Shown: positions 3,001-62,120 of the stretch, piece after piece
How positions within the stretch are numbered: the first letter of the stretch is position 1
Layout: every line of letters begins with the position of its first letter
NCBI RefSeq assembly: GCF_964204645.1
Contig: NC_134035.1
Coordinates: 9,176,501-9,240,500, forward strand
Source of the DNA: Tubulanus polymorphus
Lineage: Eukaryota > Nemertea > Palaeonemertea > Tubulaniformes > Tubulanidae
Length of the DNA: 64,000 bases
Direction: 5' to 3'
Made by a program: the position numbers and the translations under genes
The notes under the pieces: generated by a model
Database searches by the model: none
What the model was told of the DNA's origin: nothing
The model's input: the letters and a program-made list of their open reading frames with translations, nothing else

Positions 3001-4525
3001 TATCTGCATCGGAATGAAGGATATCTTCAACTTCTTTCAGGCTGCTGCAGTGGTCGAGCATACTACATGCAAATTCTTCGCATTGATTTACCAGTTCCAG
3101 AAACTCCGACTGAAAAATGGTACGTACATAAATATGAGTTTCAAAAATGTTCACATTCGTGTATTCATGGAAACGCGTTCACCTTGAATTCTTTTCGTTC
3201 TTCGACATATCGCAGAATCTTAGAGCGAATATCCAATGCAGTACCTATCGGATCTCTTTGTGTAAGACTCAGATACGCCGGACTTGCCTGCGCTCGCATC
3301 AATTCTAAGTAGTGTTTTTGTTTCTTTAATACATCGCTCATAGGCAATTGCTCGAGTAGTTGAAAGCGTTTAGCGTCGTCTCCTTCGATATTATAGACGA
3401 GTTGGACCATTAACAAGTTGTTTTCGCGAGCTGCTATTGTCATTGCTGTGCGCTGTATTTCAGACTTATCCATCGACTTGTACTTAGGATGAGTTAGAAT
3501 GAATTTTACCACAATTGCATTATTGCTTTGGATGGCAAACTCGATGCAGTCTAGTATATGATTCACGCTTAGATAGCGGCCTTCCAGCACTCTTTCTAAT
3601 ATGTCAATGGCGCCGTGTTCGATAGCGTAAAATAGCGCTGGTTTTGCAAAGATTGTTCCCTGGCTGTACATGAAACATTTTATTATTCCCTCATACGCCA
3701 TCTCTCTCAGGTCGTCTTGAACGAGAAAATCGAAAAGTTTCAGATTGTACTTAAATGCATCAATATCTATATTGAAGATCGCTCGTCTTAATGCTTCACA
3801 TAGTTTGCTGATACAAGTTCTGTCAGACGGGTCGATGCAGTCATCAGGCACGTCGAAAACGACCTGAAAAAAAAACAAAGGACACGTCTGTCATCATCGC
3901 TGAAACCAATAGCCGCTCATCATTGCTTGGAGAGTTTCTGGGGGCTAAATCAGCCCCGCCACTGTTATTGGAGCGGTCTGGAAATAAAACGATTCAGATA
4001 TTTCTAAATGAGCTGGAAAACTTAAAACAGCAAGGCTGGAATTCACCGAAGCATTTTTGCCATCGTTCAAGACAGTGATGTTCGCATACATGTGCTTACT
4101 ATCAGAACATGGCATCATCTTGCGTGCGGACGACAAGCGTTTTTACGAACAAAAGAAAACTTAATCGGCGGTGAGGGCATGTTTATCTCCGTGACTAAAG
4201 CATTGATCATGTAGGATACTTTGGCCATTTCGAAGAAAGTCAGTGATGGTCGGGATAGTTGCTTTCGTCCGCGGACAACGTTAGTCTATCCAGCGTTTAT
4301 GAGATAATCGGTATGCCTTGGTGAATTCCTGCCAAACCCATTACTCACGTCATCACCAGAGAGCCCTTCGTCGCCTACATAACTAAATAAGTTCTGATAA
4401 GATGTTGAGCTACGGAGGGTCTCGCACGTTCGCTCCACGTCCATATCACAACTGGCTACATTCTGAGAAGATGTTGATGATCTACGGACAACTAGAGACT
4501 CGTACGTCCGTTCTACGTCGTCCAT
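1..4525 (-). CDS. TRPC: TRPC-type cation channel gene, 5' ten exons (3' end outside window)
   Basis: Encodes a canonical transient receptor potential channel, a plasma-membrane non-selective cation channel usually gated downstream of phospholipase C. Ten exons join in one frame: 4525-4349, 3863-3183, 3109-2924, 2675-2484, 2342-2105, 1763-1458, 1219-1032, 886-765, 514-420, 75-1, giving about 753 residues. In order: a variable N-terminus, an ankyrin-like helical region (60-250), the TRP_2 segment ASPAYLSLTQRDP (about 252), the HPICQ pre-S1 motif, hydrophobic segments S1-S5, ASESLGPLQIS after S4 (closest to TRPC3/6/7 as I remember them), the pore-helix motif LFWSLFG (702-708), and the start of S6. 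The TRP box and C-terminal tail are missing because the window ends. The first ATG in frame is at 4525; the open frame continues to 4540, where an AG could be an upstream splice acceptor, so a further 5' exon is possible. Family is certain, subtype is not. Confidence 0.93.
361..416 (+). repeat. Short (CTTGAAA)n tail, retroposon-like
   Basis: An aataaac signal is followed by two and a half copies of the heptamer cttgaaa, ending at the exon 9 donor of the TRPC gene. The pattern (poly-A signal then short tandem tail) is typical of 3' ends of non-LTR retroposons, but no body is recognised upstream. Confidence 0.35.
420..514 (-). CDS. TRPC: TRPC exon 9: pore helix
   Basis: Reads SMGTLFWSLFGMAESSAPDL. 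LFW in the pore helix is the TRPC signature. Two acceptors lie five bases apart (at 520 and at 515); only ggtcag at 515 keeps the pore frame with exon 8. Donor TTCCG|gtaagt. Confidence 0.9.
577..718. repeat. Foldback element in TRPC intron 8
   Basis: Inverted arms at 577-600 and 696-718 (core acgcacacgacacagg) surround a GAAACA-rich centre. The flanks on each side (534-572 and 720-757) are themselves similar, so a stretch of intron was duplicated with or around the element. Related sequence lies at 49155-49377. Confidence 0.7.
765..886 (-). CDS. TRPC: TRPC exon 8: end of S5 and outer pore
   Basis: FFVAFLSGIRNLYTFY is the end of S5, as in TRPC, followed by a hydrophilic outer-pore loop. Donor CCATC|gtacgc leaves two nucleotides, completed by T of exon 9 to give serine. 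Confidence 0.85.
1032..1219 (-). CDS. TRPC: TRPC exon 7: S4 and S4-S5 linker
   Basis: Contains WDTYDPMIISEACFAIANVL and ASESLGPLQISASRMVGDIA, the best conserved block of TRPC channels (S4, linker, start of S5). Acceptor tttttctttag; donor ATG|gtatgt; ends in phase 0. Confidence 0.95.
1458..1763 (-). CDS. TRPC: TRPC exon 6: S3 region
   Basis: Reads FLRTECLQLILMSKTNVLEY, then FRSGYNLVDMLTAALYLVW, which matches the TRPC W-N-L-x-D helix (S3), and a 60-residue extracellular-side loop. Acceptor tttctag; donor GGAA|gtaagt leaves one nucleotide that completes a serine codon with exon 7. Confidence 0.92.
1878..1971. repeat. 94-bp foldback hairpin in TRPC intron 5
   Basis: Arms of about 31 nt at 1878-1908 and 1941-1971 (ends ttaagctgata / tatcagcttaa) pair with a few mismatches. 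Probably a small non-autonomous foldback element. Confidence 0.6.
2105..2342 (-). CDS. TRPC: TRPC exon 5: S1 and S2, with a GC splice donor
   Basis: Begins AKEMCLIDFLRSPVIKF, matching the TRPC segment leading into S1, then FFNAVFLVLLGVMSF (S1) and ISHWIVFAFVLG (S2). The only donor that keeps frame is TTAG|gcgagt, a GC-AG intron. It rebuilds the glycine of the conserved V-x-G motif across the junction. Any GT donor nearby breaks the frame in exon 6. Confidence 0.88.
2484..2675 (-). CDS. TRPC: TRPC exon 4: pre-S1 hydrophobic segment
   Basis: Residues 349-412. Starts FIAHPICQNYL, equivalent to the HPNCQ motif of TRPC pre-S1 elbows, then a hydrophobic segment VPVLLFSVISLLFM and a basic stretch. 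Donor GAC|gtaagt; phase 0. Confidence 0.92.
2804..2843 (+). repeat. Two tandem copies of a 21-bp unit in TRPC intron 3
   Basis: atataccactgacactaag occurs at 2804 and again at 2825. The surrounding intron (2706-2880) also shows weak inverted similarity around gtacact and ctgagaattgcc. Confidence 0.6.
2924..3109 (-). CDS. TRPC: TRPC exon 3: TRP_2 / linker helices
   Basis: Residues 287-348, reading SEFLELVNQCEEFACSMLDH and ending in AFAENAKS. This matches the TRPC helix pair that follows TRP_2 (C-x-x-F-A-x-x-L-L-D pattern). Acceptor tttttcag and donor TCT|gtaagt are both good; phase 0 on each side. Confidence 0.93.
3183..3863 (-). CDS. TRPC: TRPC exon 2: ankyrin-like region and TRP_2 start
   Basis: Residues 60-286. 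The acceptor is a T-run followed by cag at 3864-3866; the donor is AAG|gtgaac. The first two thirds are helical repeats of ankyrin type (for example ALFYAIEHGAIDILERVL). The end carries the conserved TRPC stretch ASPAYLSLTQRDPIGTAL, matching the TRP_2 domain. Confidence 0.93.
4349..4525 (-). CDS. TRPC: TRPC exon 1: N-terminus with internal duplication
   Basis: Residues 1-59 from ATG 4525, ending at donor GAC|gtgagt in phase 0, which fits the phase of the next exon. The exon contains a tandem duplication: DVERTYESL...RSSTSSQN is followed by DVERTCETL..RSSTSYQN, at about 70 bp spacing. This Ser/Thr-rich segment is not part of any TRPC domain I recognise. The exon is assigned by splice phase and position rather than by homology. 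Confidence 0.65.
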
Positions 4526-9896: not shown

Positions 9897-10865
9897 TCAA
9901 CCGATGCGCATGAACGACGCTCTTTTATCGTTTTCTACGCGTCGTTCGTCGTCGTCGTCGTCGGCCAAACGTTTGCCGATTCGCATAAACGACCCGCGTT
10001 TGCCGTCGGCGTCGGCAAAATTCTTTTTGCCTATGCGCATAAAACTGCCGCGTTTGCCGCTGTCTTCCGAAGTCAAGTCGTCGATGTCGGGAAGTTGCTC
10101 GTGTTGTTTCTTACCAATTCGCATGAACATCGCTTTCTTCTCCTGGCTCTCTTCTTCGTCGTCGGCGGCCGACGATTTTTTGCCGATGCGCATGAACGAG
10201 CTCGACCCGCGCTTATCGCCATTCTCGTCGTTACGACCGATTCTCATGAAACTCGCGCGCTTGTCGGCGCCGCTTTTACCGATGCGCATGAAACTTGGCC
10301 TTTTTGGTAATTCTTCGTCGAAATCTTTCCTGCCAATGCGCATGAAGCTGGCTCGCTTATCATTCATCAGGTTTGATTTCTTGCCAATTCGCATAAAACT
10401 TGCCCGCTTATCGTCGTCGAAATCTTTCTTGCCGATTCGCATGAAACTGGCTCGCTTCAGCGCTGCCGGGTAAATCGGCCGTTTTCCTATACGCATGAAC
10501 GACGGTCGCTTGTACGAAATTCGTTTCCCTATACGCATAAATGAAGCTCGACCAATGCGCATAAACGCCGGCCTAGCTGTCCTTAGATAACTCGGAACGC
10601 TATAAGAGTCATCGTCTTCTTCCTCGTCACCAGTTTGTGAACGTCCGATGCGCATGAAACTGCTCGGTCTGCCAATCCGCATAAAGGACCCGCGTTTTTT
10701 CTCGTCCAAACTCTCACAAATGTCCACGCAACGCTCTAATTCGATTTGCAAGTTTGTATTTTCGCACTCTTCCCGGCAGTCTAATTGTTGTGATTGAGCG
10801 CACTTATTGATGACGATTAACACGAAAATCACGCTCCAATGGAAAACGATACCGCGAATCTTCAT
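9897..10865 (-). CDS. FMRIamide (FxRIamide family) neuropeptide precursor
   Basis: Secreted precursor of 322 residues, cut by prohormone convertases and amidated to give SFMRIamide-type peptides that would act on G-protein-coupled receptors. ATG 10865 starts a signal peptide (residues 1 to about 25, hydrophobic core VIFVLIVIN). Then comes an acidic spacer with a Cx3Cx11Cx3C pattern (Cys 30, 34, 46, 50). Fifteen FMRIG copies follow, most as KR-ASFMRIG-KK/KR; Gly gives the amide. Variants are GSFMRI (3), PSFMRI (2), ASFMRI (6) and one each of PSSFMRI, PAFMRI, GSSSFMRI and AMFMRI. Acidic spacers separate the copies. Four copies rely on a single Arg after Gly, one on a single Lys; the last ends at Gly then stop, so it needs no endopeptidase at its C-end. 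The family (FxRIamide, S-Iamide) is known from molluscs. The coding region lies in one exon. Confidence 0.95.
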   Translation of the reverse strand: MKIRGIVFHWSVIFVLIVINKCAQSQQLDCREECENTNLQIELERCVDICESLDEKKRGSFMRIGRPSSFMRIGRSQTGDEEEDDDSYSVPSYLRTARPAFMRIGRASFMRIGKRISYKRPSFMRIGKRPIYPAALKRASFMRIGKKDFDDDKRASFMRIGKKSNLMNDKRASFMRIGRKDFDEELPKRPSFMRIGKSGADKRASFMRIGRNDENGDKRGSSSFMRIGKKSSAADDEEESQEKKAMFMRIGKKQHEQLPDIDDLTSEDSGKRGSFMRIGKKNFADADGKRGSFMRIGKRLADDDDDERRVENDKRASFMRIG

Positions 10866-10900
10866 TTTCGTGACTAATTTGATTTTTGAGATCTGGAAAA
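10866..10900 (-). other. Likely 5' UTR and splice acceptor of the FMRIamide gene
   Basis: The minus strand reads tatattttccag just upstream, with the exon starting at 10892, 27 nt before the ATG. The frame stays open further upstream but without a signal-peptide-like start, so a non-coding first exon further right is likely. Its position is not found. Confidence 0.5.
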
Positions 10901-11221
10901 TATAAGAAATAGATAGATATAGCATAAATTCTAATGCGGAGTCAGCATTTGCAGTCATACAGGGGAGAGTGTCTAATCCCCGCTGAATTGTCAAGTTACC
11001 CTGGCATTTAACGGAATAAAGAAAAATGCTAAACTGATACATAAAAAAGTTTAATTCATAAGCTTGTTCTCTTAATTTCTATGAACCTTATGAGGAGCTT
11101 TCTTTCGGGGGGTGCCCTTTCATATGATATGCCCTATTTGGGGATTGCACCCTTCTCTGAATCAAACCCTCGATCCGCCCCTGTTTTACAAATCAACTTC
11201 CTTGAAGTATGTGTACGAATG

Positions 11222-51504: not shown

Positions 51505-51683
51505 AGTTTCGATGGAATTAGAGAGCAAAAAACATTGAACCCAATCAGTCACTTGCCGGTTCAGACGCAAAATGTACCATGTTGATAGAGAATTGCTCAG
51601 TGTTTGGTACAGTACATAGCTAATATACAAAACAATATAACGGCATTTTAAGGGTCCAGAGGGCAAGGTCCAGCGGGTCAAGA

Positions 51684-51999: not shown

Positions 52000-54900
52000 A
52001 TCGCTTCCGATAGTAGAGCACGCCTCTTAAATAGTCTCTCTAAAACATACGCACGGTATCAACTGGTCGACCAGCACGAAAGGACACCTTTCTGCTGATC
52101 GTGGAATTGGACGAAAACACAGTTTAGGTATATTCGTTTCGGATTCCCTACAACCGTTTTTTGTTTGTGGAACGACGGCTAGGTACTATAGACTATCATG
52201 GACGTAAAGTAGTTTATACGTCCATATGAGTTTATCAAATGTTCCACTGCCAGGTTGAATACGCGCCTCTGTACCCAGCTCAACGATATCGAATTCCTGA
52301 GTCCCACGTCTTTGCGGTCCCAGATCCGACGCGAGTGGATTGAGTGCATGATCGAATAATAAAACCCCGGCAATAGACAGATTTAAATTCATAAAAAATC
52401 TTATTCAATTGAGTGGAGACATATTAGGCTTTTTAGATTACTTGCAGCAGCGTGGATCCTCTGGAAATTTTGCCAACAACTTCATTACGCTTACCACTCA
52501 TAATTTGAAAAAACCCAAATTTCTTTCTTTAATTATGATACTGGATTAAACGGTACATCATCATGTAAATCCAGGAGTCCATATTAAGAATTTCGTTCTT
52601 TGTTTTCAGTCTTAAAATGATAGTATCTGTTTTTCTCCAAAGTATTTTAAAGCCTGTTTGGTCAACGGATGGCTATAGTGACAATCAAAAAGATTGCTGA
52701 TTTCACAATACTCTTCGGCAGCTAAATACTTGCTTCTAACCGGTCAACTAGTGTCAGTGCGTCCGGTTTAAGCTGTATTGCCATTGATATAATCGCATCA
52801 TCATGTTTTCCGCACATCCTCGTCTCCGGACAATGCTGGTGGAAATATTGGGTTGAAAAAAGAGGTGGATTGCAATAAAACCACTGACTGGTCAACTAAC
52901 AAAGTTCAGAATAGCTAATTAACTAAACAAATAAAATAAAGAATTTCAAACAAACATATTTATTATCATACAACAATTATACAAAATGCCAGGTATGTGC
53001 TCGAGGAATTATAACGTACGTTCCTCAAACACGTGGACTGTATTTCAAAAACAGTCCAACCATGGACGCATAAACTATAAACTAGAGTTTATACAACCAT
53101 GGTCCAACCATAGACTCTAAAACGGAAATGTCTATGGGCCACAACCATGGGCTCTAAACTGTAAGAGTCCATGGCTCCCCGCACTAAAACCAGAGGTAAA
53201 CCTGGCCAATTACCCTGGAAAGCATAAGATTTAATGTTGAATCAATCTGATTTACATTTTTACTCTTAAAAGTTGACCCGGCCAGCCGCCTATCTACCTT
53301 ATAGGTGTTACTTTAAAATCATGATCAAGCTAACCATAACAGATTCGGCAGTTATAGAGATTAACTGATTACAAATATCATTGTTATTTACAAAATGACA
53401 GCTGGCCGATCAGGAAAAACAAGGTATAATTTTTAGCCTTATGATGAGCTATCCAAAAAATAAGATTACCGCACTAGCCTTTAACATCACAATTGCTACT
53501 GCAAGGTTTTTCAAGGTTTTTATTCACCAAAAACATTTCGACAACAACTGATTCAGAAAATTTGAATCAATAGGATAATAATAAAATAACAACGAATTGT
53601 AAACTTTGATCCATAAAACACAATTGGGACCAGTCTGAATGTCTAAGACTATTAATTTGACAATTCATGAAGTCACCAGGCATAAGTGACATTTGGCTAT
53701 TTCATGAAATATGAAGCATTTTACCATATCAACTCTTCAATATGACAATGTAAGATATATTTAGAATACTCTGTTTATGTATCATCAATCATCAAAGAAC
53801 TACATAACATATCTCCAACATATAAACATTAAAACTCCATAAATCCACAAATTCGCTCTCTCAAATAATCAATCTCTAATTTCATTTCATTAAACATTAT
53901 TCTTAAAAGAAAACCGAAATTTCGCAAACTTTGCTTTGTATTTTAGGAATTGTAAGTTACTCGTTAACACATGAGTGAACTGTATTCGAAAAACAGTTCA
54001 ACATAAAAGCATTAAAACTAATAATACCTACAGATTCAAACTGGAAAGCTTGAGATTAACTAATCAATCTTAATTTTTTCATGTCCATAAACATTATTTT
54101 ACAAGATAACTAGAGTTTTAAGTAAGATAGCTAGAGTTTTGCCAACCTTGCCTGAGGTTTTCAAACATTATCAATGTTATTTTCTCAACATTGTTATGTT
54201 TAATGCAAAGTATTTTGAAGGTGTTTTCAATTAAGATATATTGAGTATCATCGTATAGATATTTCATCTATCCATGTAAATTACAAATAACAGATCACTG
54301 AGATATCTACAATTAAGCTGATTTCGATAACTTTTTCGCGATCGGAAATGCATCACGCGCAGATTTGAATCGGGCCCCATATATTGTAAAACTGACAATA
54401 TAGCTATCAAAACATAGCTAGGACAATTTACTAATCAACACTGTTCATATTTCCTCATTTATAGAAAAGAATGCTCCTCTTCATTCGATAGGACCTCAGT
54501 TTGATGGTTGCTATAAACCTAACTAAACAGTCGAAAAATTTTAAGATGAATAATGAACACGTATGTGTCGTTTTATTCTCATGACAAAACCTTGCTAAAT
54601 GACAGGTATTTACGTACTCGTGGAATTATCATGTAAGTTCCTTGTTAACAAATGGACTGTATTTTAATAGTTCGACAGTTCGACATAAAAGCATTTAAAC
54701 AAGAGACAAAACCTACAAAGTCCTGCTTCCGCTGTCCCTCGTCTTAACTTATGATTTTCAAACATTATCAGTTCGCTCATCTAATACATTTAATACAAAG
54801 TTATTTGAAAACATGACAATAATTTTACTATCGATAACTAATCACGTTTAAAGCTGTTTAACATTCTTTCTAAAAAAGAGTAAAATGTAAAATCTCCCAG

Positions 54901-56640
54901 ATATTATCCCTAAAACAATCAACAGTAACAGCAGTGACAGGGTGTGCTATAGGTAAAAGGGCAGGTGATCTTTCATCAGTTATTTGAAGCATTCTATCAA
55001 ATCAGTTATTTTTTTAGTATGTTTGGTTTAATTAAGGTTTATGGTTATTTGTTTTGTTTATTACTAACTGTCCGATAGAATGCTTAAAACAACAATAGAA
55101 ATGATCATAAGAGGTTGGGAAACTCTAGAGAAGGTTGTTCCATGTGAAGAAGAACCTTTAATGATTAGGTTAAGTTAATTAAAAAAATTCCTGATGATGA
55201 TTATAATTATAGAAGTTAACTAATTGTTTGTTCGTTTTTGTTTATTTTTATTATTACTTATGATTTTATTTGTTTTTTTTTTAAATATTTATTTTGTTAT
55301 GTATTTTTTATTCATTGTTTTTTTATTTATTTACTTCTTTAATTATGTTCTATGTATTTTGTATTTTGTACTATTTTTTACTATTGACATCATCAGGAAT
55401 GTCTTACCGGTGGAAATATGGGCTCACTTTAAAAAAGTGCTACAAATTCACTGCTGCTCCTAAATAATCGTTTATCATTAAAAACCCCGATTTGGAGTTA
55501 AGCGATCATTGAAAGCAACTCAACCTTATGATATGGATGATGATGAGAGAAGTTAAAACAGCTATAAACAGAATTAAAACGATCAAAATTATTGCTGGCC
55601 ATTATCATTTATTCCTTTATATCACATTATTCCTAGCTATACCTCTCTTATACCTCTGTGGATACAATGTACTAAGATACAAGTTTTCATATACCTAGCT
55701 ATGATCATCTACATGGAAGCTCAATGCTAAAACCCTGTGAAAATCGAGATATTCTACTCATTAGTCAAATCGCTTTTATGGGCATTGGAAAAAAAATATG
55801 GCATCAACAAATACAACACTTTGGTATATAAACTTAGTATTTGTACACAGAACACTGCCGAACATTATAGTCTATGTTTTTCTTAACTACGTGATGATAT
55901 TCAAGGGCGTAGCCAGTCTATACTGAAGGCCCACTTTTTGGCCAAGGAATCATTTTCAAAACATCTTTATTCAAAGCCCATAAACTTGCTGGGCGAGTTT
56001 AACTAATCAGGTATCAACTTCCTTTATTGCGTTTAAAAGTTTCAACCGTTTAACTGACTACCCTCTCCCTTTTGAACATTCAGGCTATGCAAATCATTTT
56101 CACTCTCAGGAAATATAAAATGAATCACTGTTTCTAAGAGACCAAATTATGTCATTATTACAAATCATGCAAAGCTATGTTTAACTAAGTATGAAGATTA
56201 TCTGAACTATCCTGTTGATATCATATCTCAGTTTAGGTGTATTTCAACGGACCTCCGTCGAACCGTAACGCTGAATGCGATCAATACCATGAATTAATGG
56301 AGCGTAGATTTCATGAGACTCCAAGAAGGAACTTTCTGTCACATTACAAAGGACATGACACATCTGTTTACAAATCGAAAACAGTTTGCCTAATCAATAT
56401 GAAAGAATTAGGATGCCATTTTATTGAAATATTCAAATATGAATAGTTCCTTCTCAGGCCCAGAGCCCTAATTATCGAACCTCAATTTTCATTAATCAAC
56501 ATTAAAACTATTTCTTTATTTCCGCCTCTTCAAAAAGACAGTGCATTTTAAGACGCATTTTGAAACCCATGTTACACATCAGACTGGTTTGTAAAAAGGT
56601 AATACACAAAATAAATCAATACTTTACATATTCTACTGAC
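52000..56640. other. AT-rich, CpG-poor stretch, no gene defined
   Basis: Base composition changes here from CpG-rich to CpG-poor. Three diverged copies of a block occur at about 52981, 53945 and 54601 (shared words ggactgtatt / gaactgtatt, aacagttc.ac, ataaaagcatt.aaac). A T-rich tract at 55224-55385 makes a spurious hydrophobic frame. It may be intronic DNA of a minus-strand transcript continuing from the exon array. Confidence 0.4.
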
Positions 56641-56770
56641 GTTGCTGCTCCTGAACAAGTGTTTATAAGATACGCATTGTCTGTGCTGCTCCTGAATAAA
56701 TGTTCACAATATATATACATTGTCTCTGCTGCTCCTGATTAATTGTTTTTATATAACACACGCATTGTCT
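56641..56770 (+). repeat. Three tandem ~43-bp units
   Basis: Each unit starts tgctgctcctga and ends cattgtct (56641-56682, 56683-56725, 56726-56770). A single related ctgctgctcctaaataa lies at 55451. Confidence 0.85.
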
Positions 56771-57097
56771 CTGCTCCACCTGTAGAAGAAATCTGTCATT
56801 GGGCGATAAACCGCTGCTGGCTGAATTTCTCATCTGGACTTCTAGGCCTACGCAGTTGAATTCAAGTTGGACTCTTCTGTGGTAGTTGATGATTTCAATT
56901 CAAGTTAGAATCTTCTGTTGGCAGTTTTAATCAGTAGATTCTAGATAACGAGTTGATCTCAGGCTGAGCTTCTTCTTATAGATGTGATTTAGCTGAAATT
57001 AATAAAAGAAGATATCCTGTAACTATACAATATCTTACAATATACACAATTTTTCATATAGCATTAATCATAATAAATTCCATGTAAATCAACTTAC

Positions 57098-58353
57098 CTT
57101 TCAAGATAACTGGATTTAGTGTCGGCTAGGAGTTCTAAGTTAGTTGATTAGTAAAATTCAAGGTGCATTCTTCTGTTGTCTGTTCTAATCAGTAGATTCG
57201 AGATGGTTAGTTGATCTTAGTATGGACTTTTTCTTATAGATGTGATGTAGCTGAAATGCACAAAAGGAGATATCCTGTAATCACACAATATTTCATACAG
57301 CATTAATGAAAATGGATTCCATGTGAATCAACTTACCTTTCAAGTCGGTTCATGAGTTAAATTCGTTCTGTGGTAGTTGATGATTTCAATTCAAGTTGGA
57401 ATATTCTGTTGGCTATTCGAATCAGTAGATTTTTGACTAGTTAAATCTTAGGCATTTTCTTATAGATGTGATTTAGCTGAAATGAATAAAAGAAGATATC
57501 CTGTAATTAGACAATATCTTACAATACACACAATTCTTCATATAGCTTTAATCATACTAAATTCCATGTAAATCAATTTACCTTTTAAGATAACTGGGTT
57601 TCGTGTCGGCTAGGAGTTCTAAGTTAGTAAAATTCAAGGTGCATTCTTCTGTTGTCTGTTCTAATCAGTAGATTCTAGATGGTTAGTTGATCTTAGTATG
57701 GGCTTTTCCTTATAGATGTGATTTAGCTGAAATGCACAAAAGGAGATATCCTGTATTCACACAATATTTCATATAGCATTAATGATAATAGATTCCATGT
57801 GAATCAACATACCTTTCAAGATTGCTGCGTTAAGTATCGGCTAGGATCGTCTAAGTCGGTTCATGAGTTAAATTCGTTCTGTGGTAGTTGGTGATTTCAA
57901 TTCAAGTTGGAATATTCTGTTGGCTATTCGAATCAGTACATGTTTGACTAGTTAAACTTTGGCTGAGCATTATCTTATAGATGTAATTTAGCTGAAATGA
58001 ATAAAAGAAGATATCCTGTAATTATACAATATCTTACAATATACACTATTTTTCATATAGCATTAATCATAATAAATTCCATGTAAATCAATTTACCTTT
58101 CAAGATAACTGGGTTTAGTGTTGACTAGGAGTTCTAGGTTGGTTCTAAGTTCAAGTTGCATTCTTCTGTCGACTGTTTTAATCAGTAGATTCTAGATGGT
58201 TAGTTGATCTTAGTATGGGCTTTTTCTTATAGATGTGATTTGTGATAACTGGGTTTAGTGTCGGCTAGGATTGTCTAAGTCTGTTCTCTAATCGGCAGAT
58301 TTTAAACGAGTTGTTGACCTCAAGCGCGGCAGTTTCATATAGATATTATTTAG
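57098..58353 (-). repeat. Higher-order dimer part of the array, with one fused exon
   Basis: Units alternate between type A (105-nt intron, ttaatcataataaattcc) and type B (86-nt intron, ttaatgataatagattcc), so the repeat period is about 480-515 bp. The exon 58353-58097 joins two exon bodies: at 58241 gatgtgattt runs straight into gtgataactgggtttag, where an acceptor, intron and donor have been deleted. Confidence 0.75.
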
Positions 58354-58771
58354 CTGAAACGAGTAAACAAAGATATCCTGTAAATACAAATATTTCATTC
58401 AGAATTAATCGTAATAATTTCATGTATATCAACTTACCTTTAACGATTGCTAGGTTCGGTATTGGCTTGGATACTCGGTGTGTTAGGACATTAGTTTCGA
58501 ACCCCAACTGCCTAATTATTTGTTGTAGTAGTAGCATTCGTTCATCACTGTTCAAGATTAATGACGGACCGGATATATATCAGATCAGCAATGTGGACCG
58601 GTGCATAGATTTTGGTAATTAAATGCCTCTTCTTTGCGCTGTTCTCTAATCGGCAGATTTCAAACGAGTTGTTGATCTCAAGCGCGGCTGGTTCATATAG
58701 ATAGGATAAAGCTTAAACAGTTAACAAAGATATCCTGAAAATACAAATATTTCATTCAGAATTAATCGTAA

Positions 58772-59308
58772 CTAGTGGAAAGCCCGTGGAAACCACGGGT
58801 GATTTCTAAATGAAGAACTTCCCACTTATTATTTCGTTGCATGTTGATTGAGTATTTGGGCATTTCAAAGTGGCCTCATTTATGTGGTGTGATCAGCTGT
58901 GCCCATATAGAGACCATACGGGATCTCAGGACTCACTTGAGCTTCTTCCCATGGAGGCCCAAGGTTACAGAACTATAGATAGAAACAAATATGTAAAGTA
59001 CCGATATGATCATTTCATAATGTATGAATTTCATGACCCGGCAGCTGGGTCACAAAGGCAACAGTAGCTCGTACTGTATCAACAGTGACAACAGTGGCTG
59101 TCTCTAGTCAGTGGCTATGCCAGCAGACCCATGCACCCTCTGTGAACAGTAGGAGAGACTACAAAAATTTGGAAAGTGAATAATTTTGAATGGAAACCAT
59201 GCCCAAGCGATAAAAGACGTCGAGATCTACCGCCGGGCAAATTTTCAGGGCAATACATCCAGTAACGATGGAGCAGTCGGTGCAACAATTCAGTATCATT
59301 ATATAAGA
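58772..59308 (-). mobile_element. Non-autonomous Helitron, 537 bp, in an array intron
   Basis: On the minus strand it starts TCTTATATAATG at 59308 and ends with hairpin CCCGTGG-TTT-CCACGGG, seven bases, then CTAG at 58775-58772. It sits between A and T with no target duplication. TC at the 5' end, CTRR after a hairpin at the 3' end and A|T insertion are the hallmarks of Helitrons. Removing it restores cgtaataatttcatgtat, exactly the sequence of the sister unit at 58411-58427, and a normal 83-nt intron. No Rep/helicase is encoded; a 65-codon plus-strand frame (58870-59067) has no recognised content. Confidence 0.88.
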
Positions 59309-59612
59309 TAATTTCATGTATATCAACTTACCTTTTATTATTGCTTTGTTCGCTATCGGCGAGGATCTCCTAAGTTGGTTGGTTGATGTTGAGATCAATT
59401 CAAATGGCCCCTTCAGTGTGCTGTTCTCTAATCGGCAGATTTTAAACGAGTTGTTGATCTCATGAGCGGCAGTTTCATATAGATAGGATTTAGCTGAAAA
59501 TGAGTAAACAAAGATATCCTGTAAATACAGATATTTCATTCAGAATTCAGGCCCCTTCTGTGCGCTGTTCTCTAATCGGTAGATTTTAGATGAGTTGTTG
59601 ACCTCAAGCGCT

Positions 59613-59743
59613 CGTTTGACTTTGTAGCCGGGTCACATCGTACTGTATCAACTGTGACAACAGTGGCTATCTCTAGTCAGTGGCTATGCCAGCAGACCCA
59701 TGCGCCCTCTGTTTACAGTAGGAGAGACTACAAAAATTTTGCA
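59613..59743 (-). mobile_element. Fragment related to the Helitron interior
   Basis: About 110 bp closely matches 59058-59170 inside the Helitron (shared words gacaacagtggct, tagtcagtggctatgccagc, gtaggagagactacaaaaat). It lacks both Helitron ends and interrupts one array exon body. Confidence 0.75.
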
Positions 59744-60422
59744 AATGGCGCTGTTCCAGTTGGTCGATTTTGGAAAAGTAGTTGATCTCAAGCTGGGTTT
59801 TTTCTTATAGTTGCAATTTAGCTGCTATGATTAAAAGAAGATAGCCTGTAATGACAAATTATTTCATTTAGAATTCATCATTATCATTTCCATAAAATAT
59901 AAACTTACATTTCAAGTTTGCTGGGTTCCGTATCAGTTAAAATGTTCTAAGTTCATTGATGCATTTGATTTAAGCTTGAATTGTTGTGTGGGCTGTTCTT
60001 ATCGGTAGATTTATGATTTGTTGTTGATCTCAAGCTGGGCAGTTTGATGAAGATAGGATTCAGCTGAAGAGTAAACAAAGATATCATGTAATCACAAAAC
60101 ATTTCATTGAGAATGAATCGAAATAACTCCATCTATATTAAGTTACCTTTTATGATTGCTGGATTCGTTATCGGCGTGGATCATCTAAGTTGGTTGGTTG
60201 ATTCTAGTTTGCTATGCGCTGTTCCAGTTGGTCGATTTTGGACAAGTAGTTAATCTCAAACTGGGTTTTTCTCATAGTTGAAATTTAGCTGCAATGATTA
60301 AAAGAAGATATCCTGTAATGACAAAGTATTTCATTTAGAATTTATCGCAATAATTTCAACTATATTAAGTTACCTTTTATGATTGCCGGGTTCATTATCG
60401 GCGAGGGTCTCCTAAGTTGGTA

Positions 60423-60612
60423 GTCTAATTTTACATATCTTTTGTTGTTTTTTCTGTGTAAATAGTCCGAAAGTTTACAATGTTTGAATTTTGTCTAATT
60501 TTACATTTCTTTGCTTTTCTTTTCATGTAAATAGTCCGAAAGTTTACAAGGTTAAGATAATTTTGTCTAAGTTTTACTTTTTACTTTTGCTTTCTCCGTG
60601 TAAAGTTTTTTC
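60423..60612 (+). repeat. Three tandem ~71-bp units
   Basis: Units begin gtctaattttac at 60423 and 60493 and gtctaagttttac at 60565; two carry gtaaatagtccgaaagttta. The third is truncated where the SINE-like copy begins. Confidence 0.85.
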
Positions 60613-60782
60613 AAAATCGGAAATCGAAGTACAGATATAGTTGCGTGATCGGTGGTCCATTTTACATAAATTTTCTTTTCTTGAAATCCAAGCACATAAC
60701 GGGAAATTCGGTTCCGGTGCCTTCAATTAATCTTCCAACCAGTCTGAACCGGCAAGCCTCTGATTGGGGACTGCCTATTTTG
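60612..60782 (-). repeat. SINE-like dispersed repeat, minus-strand copy
   Basis: On the minus strand it carries cttgccggttcagactg, ccggaaccgaatttcc, gatcacgcaactatatctgt and acttcgatttccg, in the same order as 30259-30450. Confidence 0.75.
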
Positions 60783-61964
60783 ATACATCGATATTGGAAT
60801 ATCTATATTACAAGGCTGAAGATCATTTTGTACATTTTATGACTAGTTGATTAATAGTATCATATAGTGCAAACCTGCTAGTAAAATTGCCCCTATATAA
60901 ATTTCGATTCCCAGCTAAACTATGTTTGTATTATTAAATTAACTTCATCGCCAATTAATAGACTTTTAAGAGATATGTATTCTTCCCACAGACATCTGTG
61001 CCCAGTGAATGGTATTCTAATCCATTTCAGTAATTTTAAATATTGCTGGTAAAATATATACAATGATCTTATGATTATGATAATATAACTAGCTTAACGA
61101 ACCCAGAATTCCCCAAAACCTAACTGATTCAACAGATCCCACACACATGTGGCCCAGTTAGACGCAGACAACATTGCACGATACAGTCGTCTCATCCACT
61201 GCGCTATTTTTGATAAACTTAAATTCGTTATATTGAATTAATTCTAACTTATTTTCTGATATCTAAGCGATCCATTAATTAGTAATCATACTAGCCACAA
61301 TTAATTGTCAGTCGAACAATATTTATATGGAGCCTGAAAACCTACATGAGTAGAATTTCAGATGTGGTGAATTCATCACTATTTGAATTCATCAGAACTT
61401 AAGTTAAAATCACATTTTTAGTGGTAAATTAGAAATTCCCTTATACCCGAATTGCAATATAATCTTTATTTCCCTTTTACAGTACACTGTGTATAAGGAT
61501 CAAAAGACCTTGTTATGACCGGACCTCCCTGGTGCGGTGCAAGACATGATGCTGGAATATAGTTTGAAGGAGAGGGGTTAGTAAAAGAGAGCTATTAGCG
61601 AGAGGAATAAGACCTAAGTTCAGGATATCCTGTCAGAATAAGGCTCTCAATCTGACATACACAGTGATATTGAAATATTCCCCCTTCCAAATCCAGGAAT
61701 GTATATTTGTGCACAGATTTGTTTTATCTCCCTTCGATCGGAAGTAAATCTGCGTTAAATGATTTTGGCAATATGTATCAAAACTAATACAGCTGTATGA
61801 AGACGCAATAGGTTCACTTAGATACAGATAAATAAGTAATGTGCTCAGATACACATGTATCAGCTACATTTTTAATGTCAATGTACTTGAATTCAAAATA
61901 ATTTCACATCATTGAATTTACCTTAATTGTAGATATCTAAGTAGTACCTTAATGAATAATTCAC
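60783..61964. other. No gene seen
   Basis: AT-rich, CpG-poor DNA with only short unconserved frames. Confidence 0.4.
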
Positions 61965-62120
61965 CTTAGTTATATCCTTATTCATCCTCCAAGTTGTTTG
62001 TCCCGCGTGTTGACTAGGTAATGATGTTTTTGGAACGTCTAATGGTGCCATCGGACTCAGTCCCAGAGTCGGATTATGGATGTTGGTATCACCAGACTTC
62101 CCACCATCGGAGTTTGACTT
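61965..62120 (-). CDS. Possible internal exon of an unknown gene
   Basis: Between an acceptor cgctagccag and donor ACTAAG|gtgaat lies a 52-codon phase-0 frame. It begins KSNSDGGKSGDT, passes through GLSPMAPLDVPKTSLPSQ and ends NKDITK. The composition (Ser, Pro, Gly, Thr, few hydrophobics) suits a disordered protein segment. I recognise no family. It would join in frame with the candidate exon ending at 62797. It could also be chance. Confidence 0.3.

Follow-up and report, generated by a model that had tools for sequence, protein, structure and literature searches.

A dispersed tandem repeat of Tubulanus polymorphus, built of exon-plus-intron units, keeps its predicted splice sites

Introduction

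How should a tandem array be read in which the repeated unit looks like a whole exon followed by a short intron, while no reading frame is kept from unit to unit? The question is raised by a stretch of 64,000 nucleotides from the nemertean Tubulanus polymorphus, here called the window. A preliminary description, made from the letters alone, had seen such an array on its minus strand and had proposed that it is spliced into a long non-coding RNA made of repeated exons, with splicing itself under selection. The same appearance could be an accident of satellite DNA, the remains of a coding gene, the work of a selfish element or the mark of splicing that is still being selected. These readings are weighed below by comparing the units of the window with those found in the rest of the genome.

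Architecture of the locus

The array occupies positions 56993-60428 of the window on the minus strand, as established with a unit profile and by reading of the sequence, and this confirms the earlier observation of an array of exon-plus-intron units. The profile places 10 donors (at 60373, 60146, 59908, 59331, 58437, 58096, 57812, 57581, 57336 and 57097), and their pairing with the AG|CT acceptors gives nine intact introns and a damaged one. Followed along the minus strand, the intact introns lie at 60289-60373 (85 nt), 60064-60146 (83 nt, with the acceptor CTTCAG|CTGAAT and a further AG upstream broken to TTACAT), 59822-59908 (87 nt), 58354-58437 (84 nt), 57992-58096 (105 nt), 57727-57812 (86 nt), 57477-57581 (105 nt), 57251-57336 (86 nt) and 56993-57097 (105 nt, the last of the array). 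The damaged intron, at 58712-59331, has reached 620 nt through inserted DNA and has TTTAAG as its acceptor. One unit, at about 59620-59494, keeps its acceptor and has lost its donor, so that the original statement that each unit keeps both sites around an intron of 83-105 nt was slightly overstated; it stands for the nine intact introns, but not for this unit or for the intron of 620 nt. The coordinates first assigned to the array (56780-60374) do contain one, but the transcript-like unit is bigger, extending from about 56.5 to 61 kb. The exon bodies drift, and the lengths of the nine window exons are mixed modulo 3 (four, three and two exons in the three classes), in agreement with the remark that no frame is kept.

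For the comparison of splice sites, the acceptor of the preliminary description (CAG|CTAAAT) is termed AG2, and a second AG in the same register, located 24 nt upstream (TTACAG|GATATC) and termed AG1, was used as an internal control.

The array is accompanied on the same strand by gene-like parts. Just 5' of the first unit there is a block (60600-60860), common to diverged members of the family, that may act on the promoter side, and further upstream a second block (61085-61967) is 87-88% alike in the three diverged members L011, L020 and L023. On the other side, a predicted terminal exon with 43-bp repeats (56500-56992) carries AATAAA at 56520-56515. This exon can be aligned across eight loci, the window and seven others; among these seven, AATAAA stands at one common place in five and TATAAA in one, while the stretch fetched for the remaining one stops short of it. 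The AATAAA of the window lies about 30-40 alignment columns upstream of that of the other loci, the counts being raw ones for a hexamer in AT-rich DNA. Distant relatives present the parts in the order upstream block, promoter-side block, array, terminal exon and further 3' sequence, in a comparison for which some of the fetched stretches are too short to include all the parts. At L021, a 45-bp sequence that belongs to the promoter-side block (60815-60771 in the window) recurs 13 times upstream of the array, between 230 and 1934 of the reverse strand.

Elsewhere on the minus strand of the window, an animal gene at 9897-11078 encodes a neuropeptide precursor in which SFMRIGK/R is repeated many times (the peptides being, by eye, of the amidated FMRIG type), and a TRP-channel-like exon at 3165-3890, which bears ankyrin repeats, matches Pfam TRP_2 (E 7.8e-08).

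A family spread over the genome

A 601-base probe gave 330 matches in the genome, and unit arrays stand at no fewer than 50 places among the matches listed. When the 3' part is also considered, the family comprises at least 73 loci among the matches listed, 50 of them recognized by unit matches and 23 by the 3'-part probe only, which does not imply an array at these 23; the tally was copied by hand and is to be taken as soft. Thirty-nine of the 73 listed loci are located in the outer 30% of their half-contig; the KS test gives p about 1e-5, with loci that are not independent when they are neighbours. The array of L011 is regular, with a period of 238 bp, 21.7 copies and 91% matches. What had been treated as a single locus belongs to a mobile family with dispersed copies. 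The testable core of the original interpretation holds.

Conservation of the splice sites

Units were collected from 27 fetched stretches, which correspond to 26 loci because two of them are the ends of one array. The 316 unit matches obtained comprise 229 core units, covering the whole intron and its margins, and 87 partial ones that were excluded from the core counts. GT was intact in all 229 core units, AG2 in 227 and AG1 in 190. When 200 dinucleotides were ranked by their intactness in these units, GT was first, AG2 second and AG1 65th. The pattern seen in the window array is above chance: in the alignment of the units, none of the 200 dinucleotides is better kept than the donor GT and AG2, as expected from the proposal that splicing has been selected. 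The partial units behave similarly, with GT in 34 and TT in two of the 36 that cover the donor, and AG in all 38 that cover AG2.

As the seeds of the profile had been picked by the AG2 motif, the test was repeated on loci that had provided no seed. Both GT and AG2 were intact in 123/123 of these units, from 17 loci, and AG1 in 95/123; GT and AG2 were again the top two of 200 dinucleotides, and AG1 ranked 67th. Many of these units are orthologous and hence non-independent, since 93 of the 123 come from 11 close copies; in the six diverged non-seed loci the counts were 30/30 for GT, 30/30 for AG2 and 15/30 for AG1. Site rates were also estimated on a tree restricted to units that are less than 93% alike (73 of them), a selection that removes most of the redundancy among copies. 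GT was the slowest of 239 dinucleotides, AG2 the third slowest and AG1 the 95th. Out of 200,000 random draws of two dinucleotides, 17 gave a pair that was equally slow; with the draws confined to columns 80-180, the number was 92 of 200,000. The refuting outcome named in the preliminary description, splice sites that mutate as fast as the rest of the unit, was not observed. The mean site rate was 1.15 in exons versus 0.77 in introns, the exons being the faster. No letters of the repeat are better kept than its splice sites, which suggests that splicing of the units into long non-coding RNAs still goes on.

Not all that is conserved in the unit, or free in it, follows the needs of splicing. GATATC, columns 67-68 and column 182 are nearly as fixed and have no obvious splicing need, and donor position +5, at which splicing usually favours G, is fast (rate 1.6), with C in 139, G in 69 and A in 21 of the 229 units; the close copies apart, C is the usual letter. 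Fixed boxes of this kind and a freely varying +5 would be natural in ordinary satellite DNA carried by a non-autonomous transposable element, in which the resemblance to splice sites is accidental and boxes, among them AAAGGTAANTT and CAGCTAAAT, are kept by protein binding or as drivers of exchange. Such DNA, however, gives no reason for GT and AG2 to be the best kept of 200 dinucleotides, in the correct order and at the spacing of an intron, when AG1, only 24 nt away, is not. Nor would it account for introns that match those of the host, since two introns of CCT-like genes, chosen by eye from gaps between the CCT-like exons and with their lengths counted, measure 85 and 83 nt and run from GTAAGT to TTTCAG, like the introns of the array in both their length and their type of acceptor. 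The recurrence of the terminal exon also argues against an accidental resemblance, and we regard this explanation as unlikely.

Changes that took place after the copies had dispersed were followed in the window and eight orthologous copies, with the copy on contig C2 and the second copy on C8 left out. GT varies at 0/20 sites, AG2 at 0/16 and AG1 at 4/20; variable sites amount to 384/1557 in the exon body, 80/433 in the introns, and 374/4000 and 272/2400 in the flanks of the element. Five of 202 column pairs are free of mismatches, GT and AG2 among them. The flanks offer the fairer null, because exchange between units can inflate the variation of exons and introns, and at their level (9-11% variable) the chance of finding 0/36 at GT and AG2 together is about 0.01-0.03. 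Selection would keep splicing intact across families and, on this weaker evidence, also after the copies had dispersed.

The largest array, at C6:8067000-8103000, contains 139 consecutive units and has been homogenised to a mean identity of 90% (1500 sampled pairs). Its 138 exons measure 151-159 nt and its introns 82-87 nt. GT is present in 139/139 units, tied with many columns and listed 32nd of 200, AG2 in 131/139 (115th of 200) and AG1 in 103/139 (161st). The modest rank of AG2 in this young array is a point in favour of satellite DNA. All eight units in which AG2 has become AA have an intact AG1, with ATTGCAG at that place, and none of 337 core units lacks both AG1 and AG2; AG1 may thus substitute for AG2 where the latter has been lost.

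Coding potential

Stop-free runs were compared with those of 50 single-base shuffles. In the nine joined exons of the window the longest run is 118 codons, near the top of the shuffles (mean 81, maximum 121), and in the predicted spliced RNA of the C6 array (21.4 kb) it is 62 codons versus a shuffled mean of 123. The 138 exon lengths of that array are distributed as 86, 33 and 19 over the three remainders modulo 3. The copy on C5 has no stop-to-stop open reading frame of more than 129 codons, and Pfam gave no match for four open reading frames of the element and one composite frame. Rfam found no RNA family at gathering score in the window; two sub-threshold microRNA matches, with E above 1, were taken as chance. 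The array is non-coding, as had been proposed: exon lengths are mixed modulo 3, stops are present and the predicted spliced RNAs contain no long reading frame. A protein-coding gene with repeated exons was rejected on the same grounds, the frame not being kept and the stop-free runs being short.

A coding past is a different matter, as one exon frame reads KFQL-EKTQLE-NYSSKIDQLEQRT- in many units and could descend from a repeated coiled-coil exon, with the splice sites left over from the gene to which it belonged. That frame is stop-free in only 10 of 150 listed genome matches (by eye), the exon lengths of the C6 array do not keep it, the rates display no clear third-position pattern and Pfam has no match for the composite frame. 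The coding-relic reading is close to refuted, and we give it very little credence.

A short antisense frame was observed at C5:22729016-22729168 on the minus strand (L003) and at about 55070-55220 on the plus strand of the window. With 51-71 codons, it occurs in the 11 close copies of the element and, weakly, at three other places; it looks HORMA-like by eye, its 14 matches are all at places of the family, and it has no Pfam match.

The dispersed element

The array lies within an element of about 14 kb (~14.4 kb as a whole), because homology to other copies on the minus strand spans the window from 51567 to its last position, 64000, and continues to about C11:9242518, 2.0 kb past the end of the window on its own contig. 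Eight loci fetched from contigs C1, C3-C5 and C7-C10 have long flanks as well as the array region in common with the window, at 84-97% identity; the copy on C2 and the second one on C8 were matched by the array and 3' probes, which brings the close copies besides the window to ten. The end at 51567 is sharp and common to several places. It is formed by a 3' terminal inverted repeat (51567-51612, minus strand), whose counterpart, some 46 bp long and 85% alike, is found at about C11:9242518, and a 9-bp target duplication, GTCTGAACC, stands beside the inverted repeats of the window copy. Among the eight other copies read on the 5' side, the inverted repeat is present in that of C4 only, and no 9-bp-type target duplication was found in the flanks of the C4 copy. 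Direct repeats of up to ~515 bp are located near both ends of the element: one at 52136-52650 of the window (minus strand, ~515 bp), and a second, cut to ~280 bp in the window copy, near the 5' end beyond the window. The inverted repeat, the 9-bp target duplication and the direct repeats speak in favour of satellite DNA within a transposable element. An LTR retrotransposon was considered and rejected, because the direct repeats do not form both ends of the element; a leader is found 5' of the first one, and shared sequence continues 3' of the last one in the window, C4 and C10.

On C8 the copies are arranged in head-to-tail tandem, and C1 holds what appears to be a recombination product between direct repeats. 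Introns are retained in every fetched array, so that the copies would have moved either as DNA or as RNA that had not been spliced. Penelope-like elements keep introns as well. Two observations concern the surroundings of the copies. Judged by eye, and with an 80% match, the element of the window (at about 51567 and at about C11:9242518-9242650) seems to be inserted in an older copy of the promoter-side block of the family, and near the C10 copy (C10:12446500-12476499, at 26.5-27.3 kb of the reverse strand) there is a tandem array with a period of about 68 bp.

Splicing could also be real and yet serve only the element, which would rely on it either to produce RNA of its own or to be removed from the transcripts of the host, the constraint being exerted on source elements with no role for the host. 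The dispersed copies, the sharp end, the head-to-tail tandems and the arrays at 50 or more places are all consistent with selfish behaviour, and so is the want of coding capacity in the parts scanned. Against it, the small number of element ORFs that were scanned showed neither a transposase nor a reverse transcriptase, and the fixation of GT and AG2 in copies that differ by about 3% in their flanks implies a constraint that seems to act copy by copy. A purely selfish origin of the constraint is, in our opinion, improbable.

Comparison with known systems

Satellite DNA and the internal tandem repeats of transposable elements consist of tandem monomers that are homogenised within arrays. The repeat described here is similar: its tandem monomers measure about 240 bp, have become alike within each array and are dispersed with an element. 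It differs in that a donor and an acceptor at the spacing of an intron are among the slowest letters of the monomer, and in that a promoter-side block and a terminal exon flank the arrays in diverged members. Introner elements are repeat families that carry splice sites around a genome, and a splice-site-bearing repeat family is dispersed here too; in contrast with them, the exon is here part of the repeat and the arrays look self-contained.

In the human and mouse Firre genes, one repeat is present in 7 of 13 and 11 of 23 exons, respectively, and acts as a nuclear retention signal; it belongs to one locus, to which such local repeats are mostly confined (PMC4820808). As in Firre, one repeat would here constitute many separate exons of a non-coding gene, the exons being in our case predicted ones. 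The two differ because here the unit is the whole exon plus a short intron, with up to 139 units in a row, and because the family is not confined to a single locus but occupies dozens, with close copies in a dispersed element. Firre would be the nearest system in its way of working, and no membership of its family is claimed.

With Terminons (PMC6431247), the element shares a large size and head-to-tail tandems. It departs from them in what the searches showed: Rfam gave no hammerhead for the window at gathering score, and none for 51.5-61.0 kb when E was allowed to rise to 5, and a reverse transcriptase was absent from the small set of ORFs scanned. A limited search of the literature, in which relevance was judged by titles and the beginnings of abstracts, retrieved no matching system.

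A proposed mobile family of non-coding genes

The explanation that we favour, and hold to be reasonably probable, is that the arrays are the bodies of non-coding genes, members of one mobile family with many loci; their RNAs would be composed of many similar exons and their splicing would be under selection. The original interpretation agrees with the strand, the non-coding nature, the recurrence of the terminal exon and the intron sizes. It is supported only in part, since transcription and splicing are deduced from constraint, the array is one of a dispersed family and donor +5 is free to vary. Transcription would proceed from the minus strand, starting upstream of the first unit. Each unit would provide one exon and one short intron, and splicing would take place unit by unit, from GT to CAG|CTAAAT, as the constraint on these letters indicates. 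The RNA would end in the family-wide terminal exon, probably at the AATAAA-type signal, and in its mature form would consist of similar exon modules joined one after another, of which the window copy would supply about 10 and the largest array as many as 138. Its likeliest use would be that of a multivalent non-coding RNA, in which the repeated modules bind one partner many times over, as proposed by analogy with the exonic repeat of Firre. Copies would have been spread as DNA or unspliced RNA, and the number of units would have been altered by unequal exchange.

In more general terms, and with a confidence that falls somewhat short of even, these loci could represent mobile 'exon satellites', whose monomer is a spliceable exon plus its intron, which are present at dozens of loci, with a preference for the outer regions of the chromosomes, and which are at present selected for splicing into non-coding RNAs of up to ~138 similar exons.

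If the predicted RNAs exist, splicing itself would be the conserved trait, despite a drifting sequence and an absent frame, and satellite DNA, mobile elements and repeat-built long non-coding RNAs would be joined in one object. Moreover, the arrays of a single genome, with unit numbers that go from a few up to 139, would then offer a natural series in which the effects of exon number, exon-junction loading and RNA valency on a non-coding RNA could be followed.
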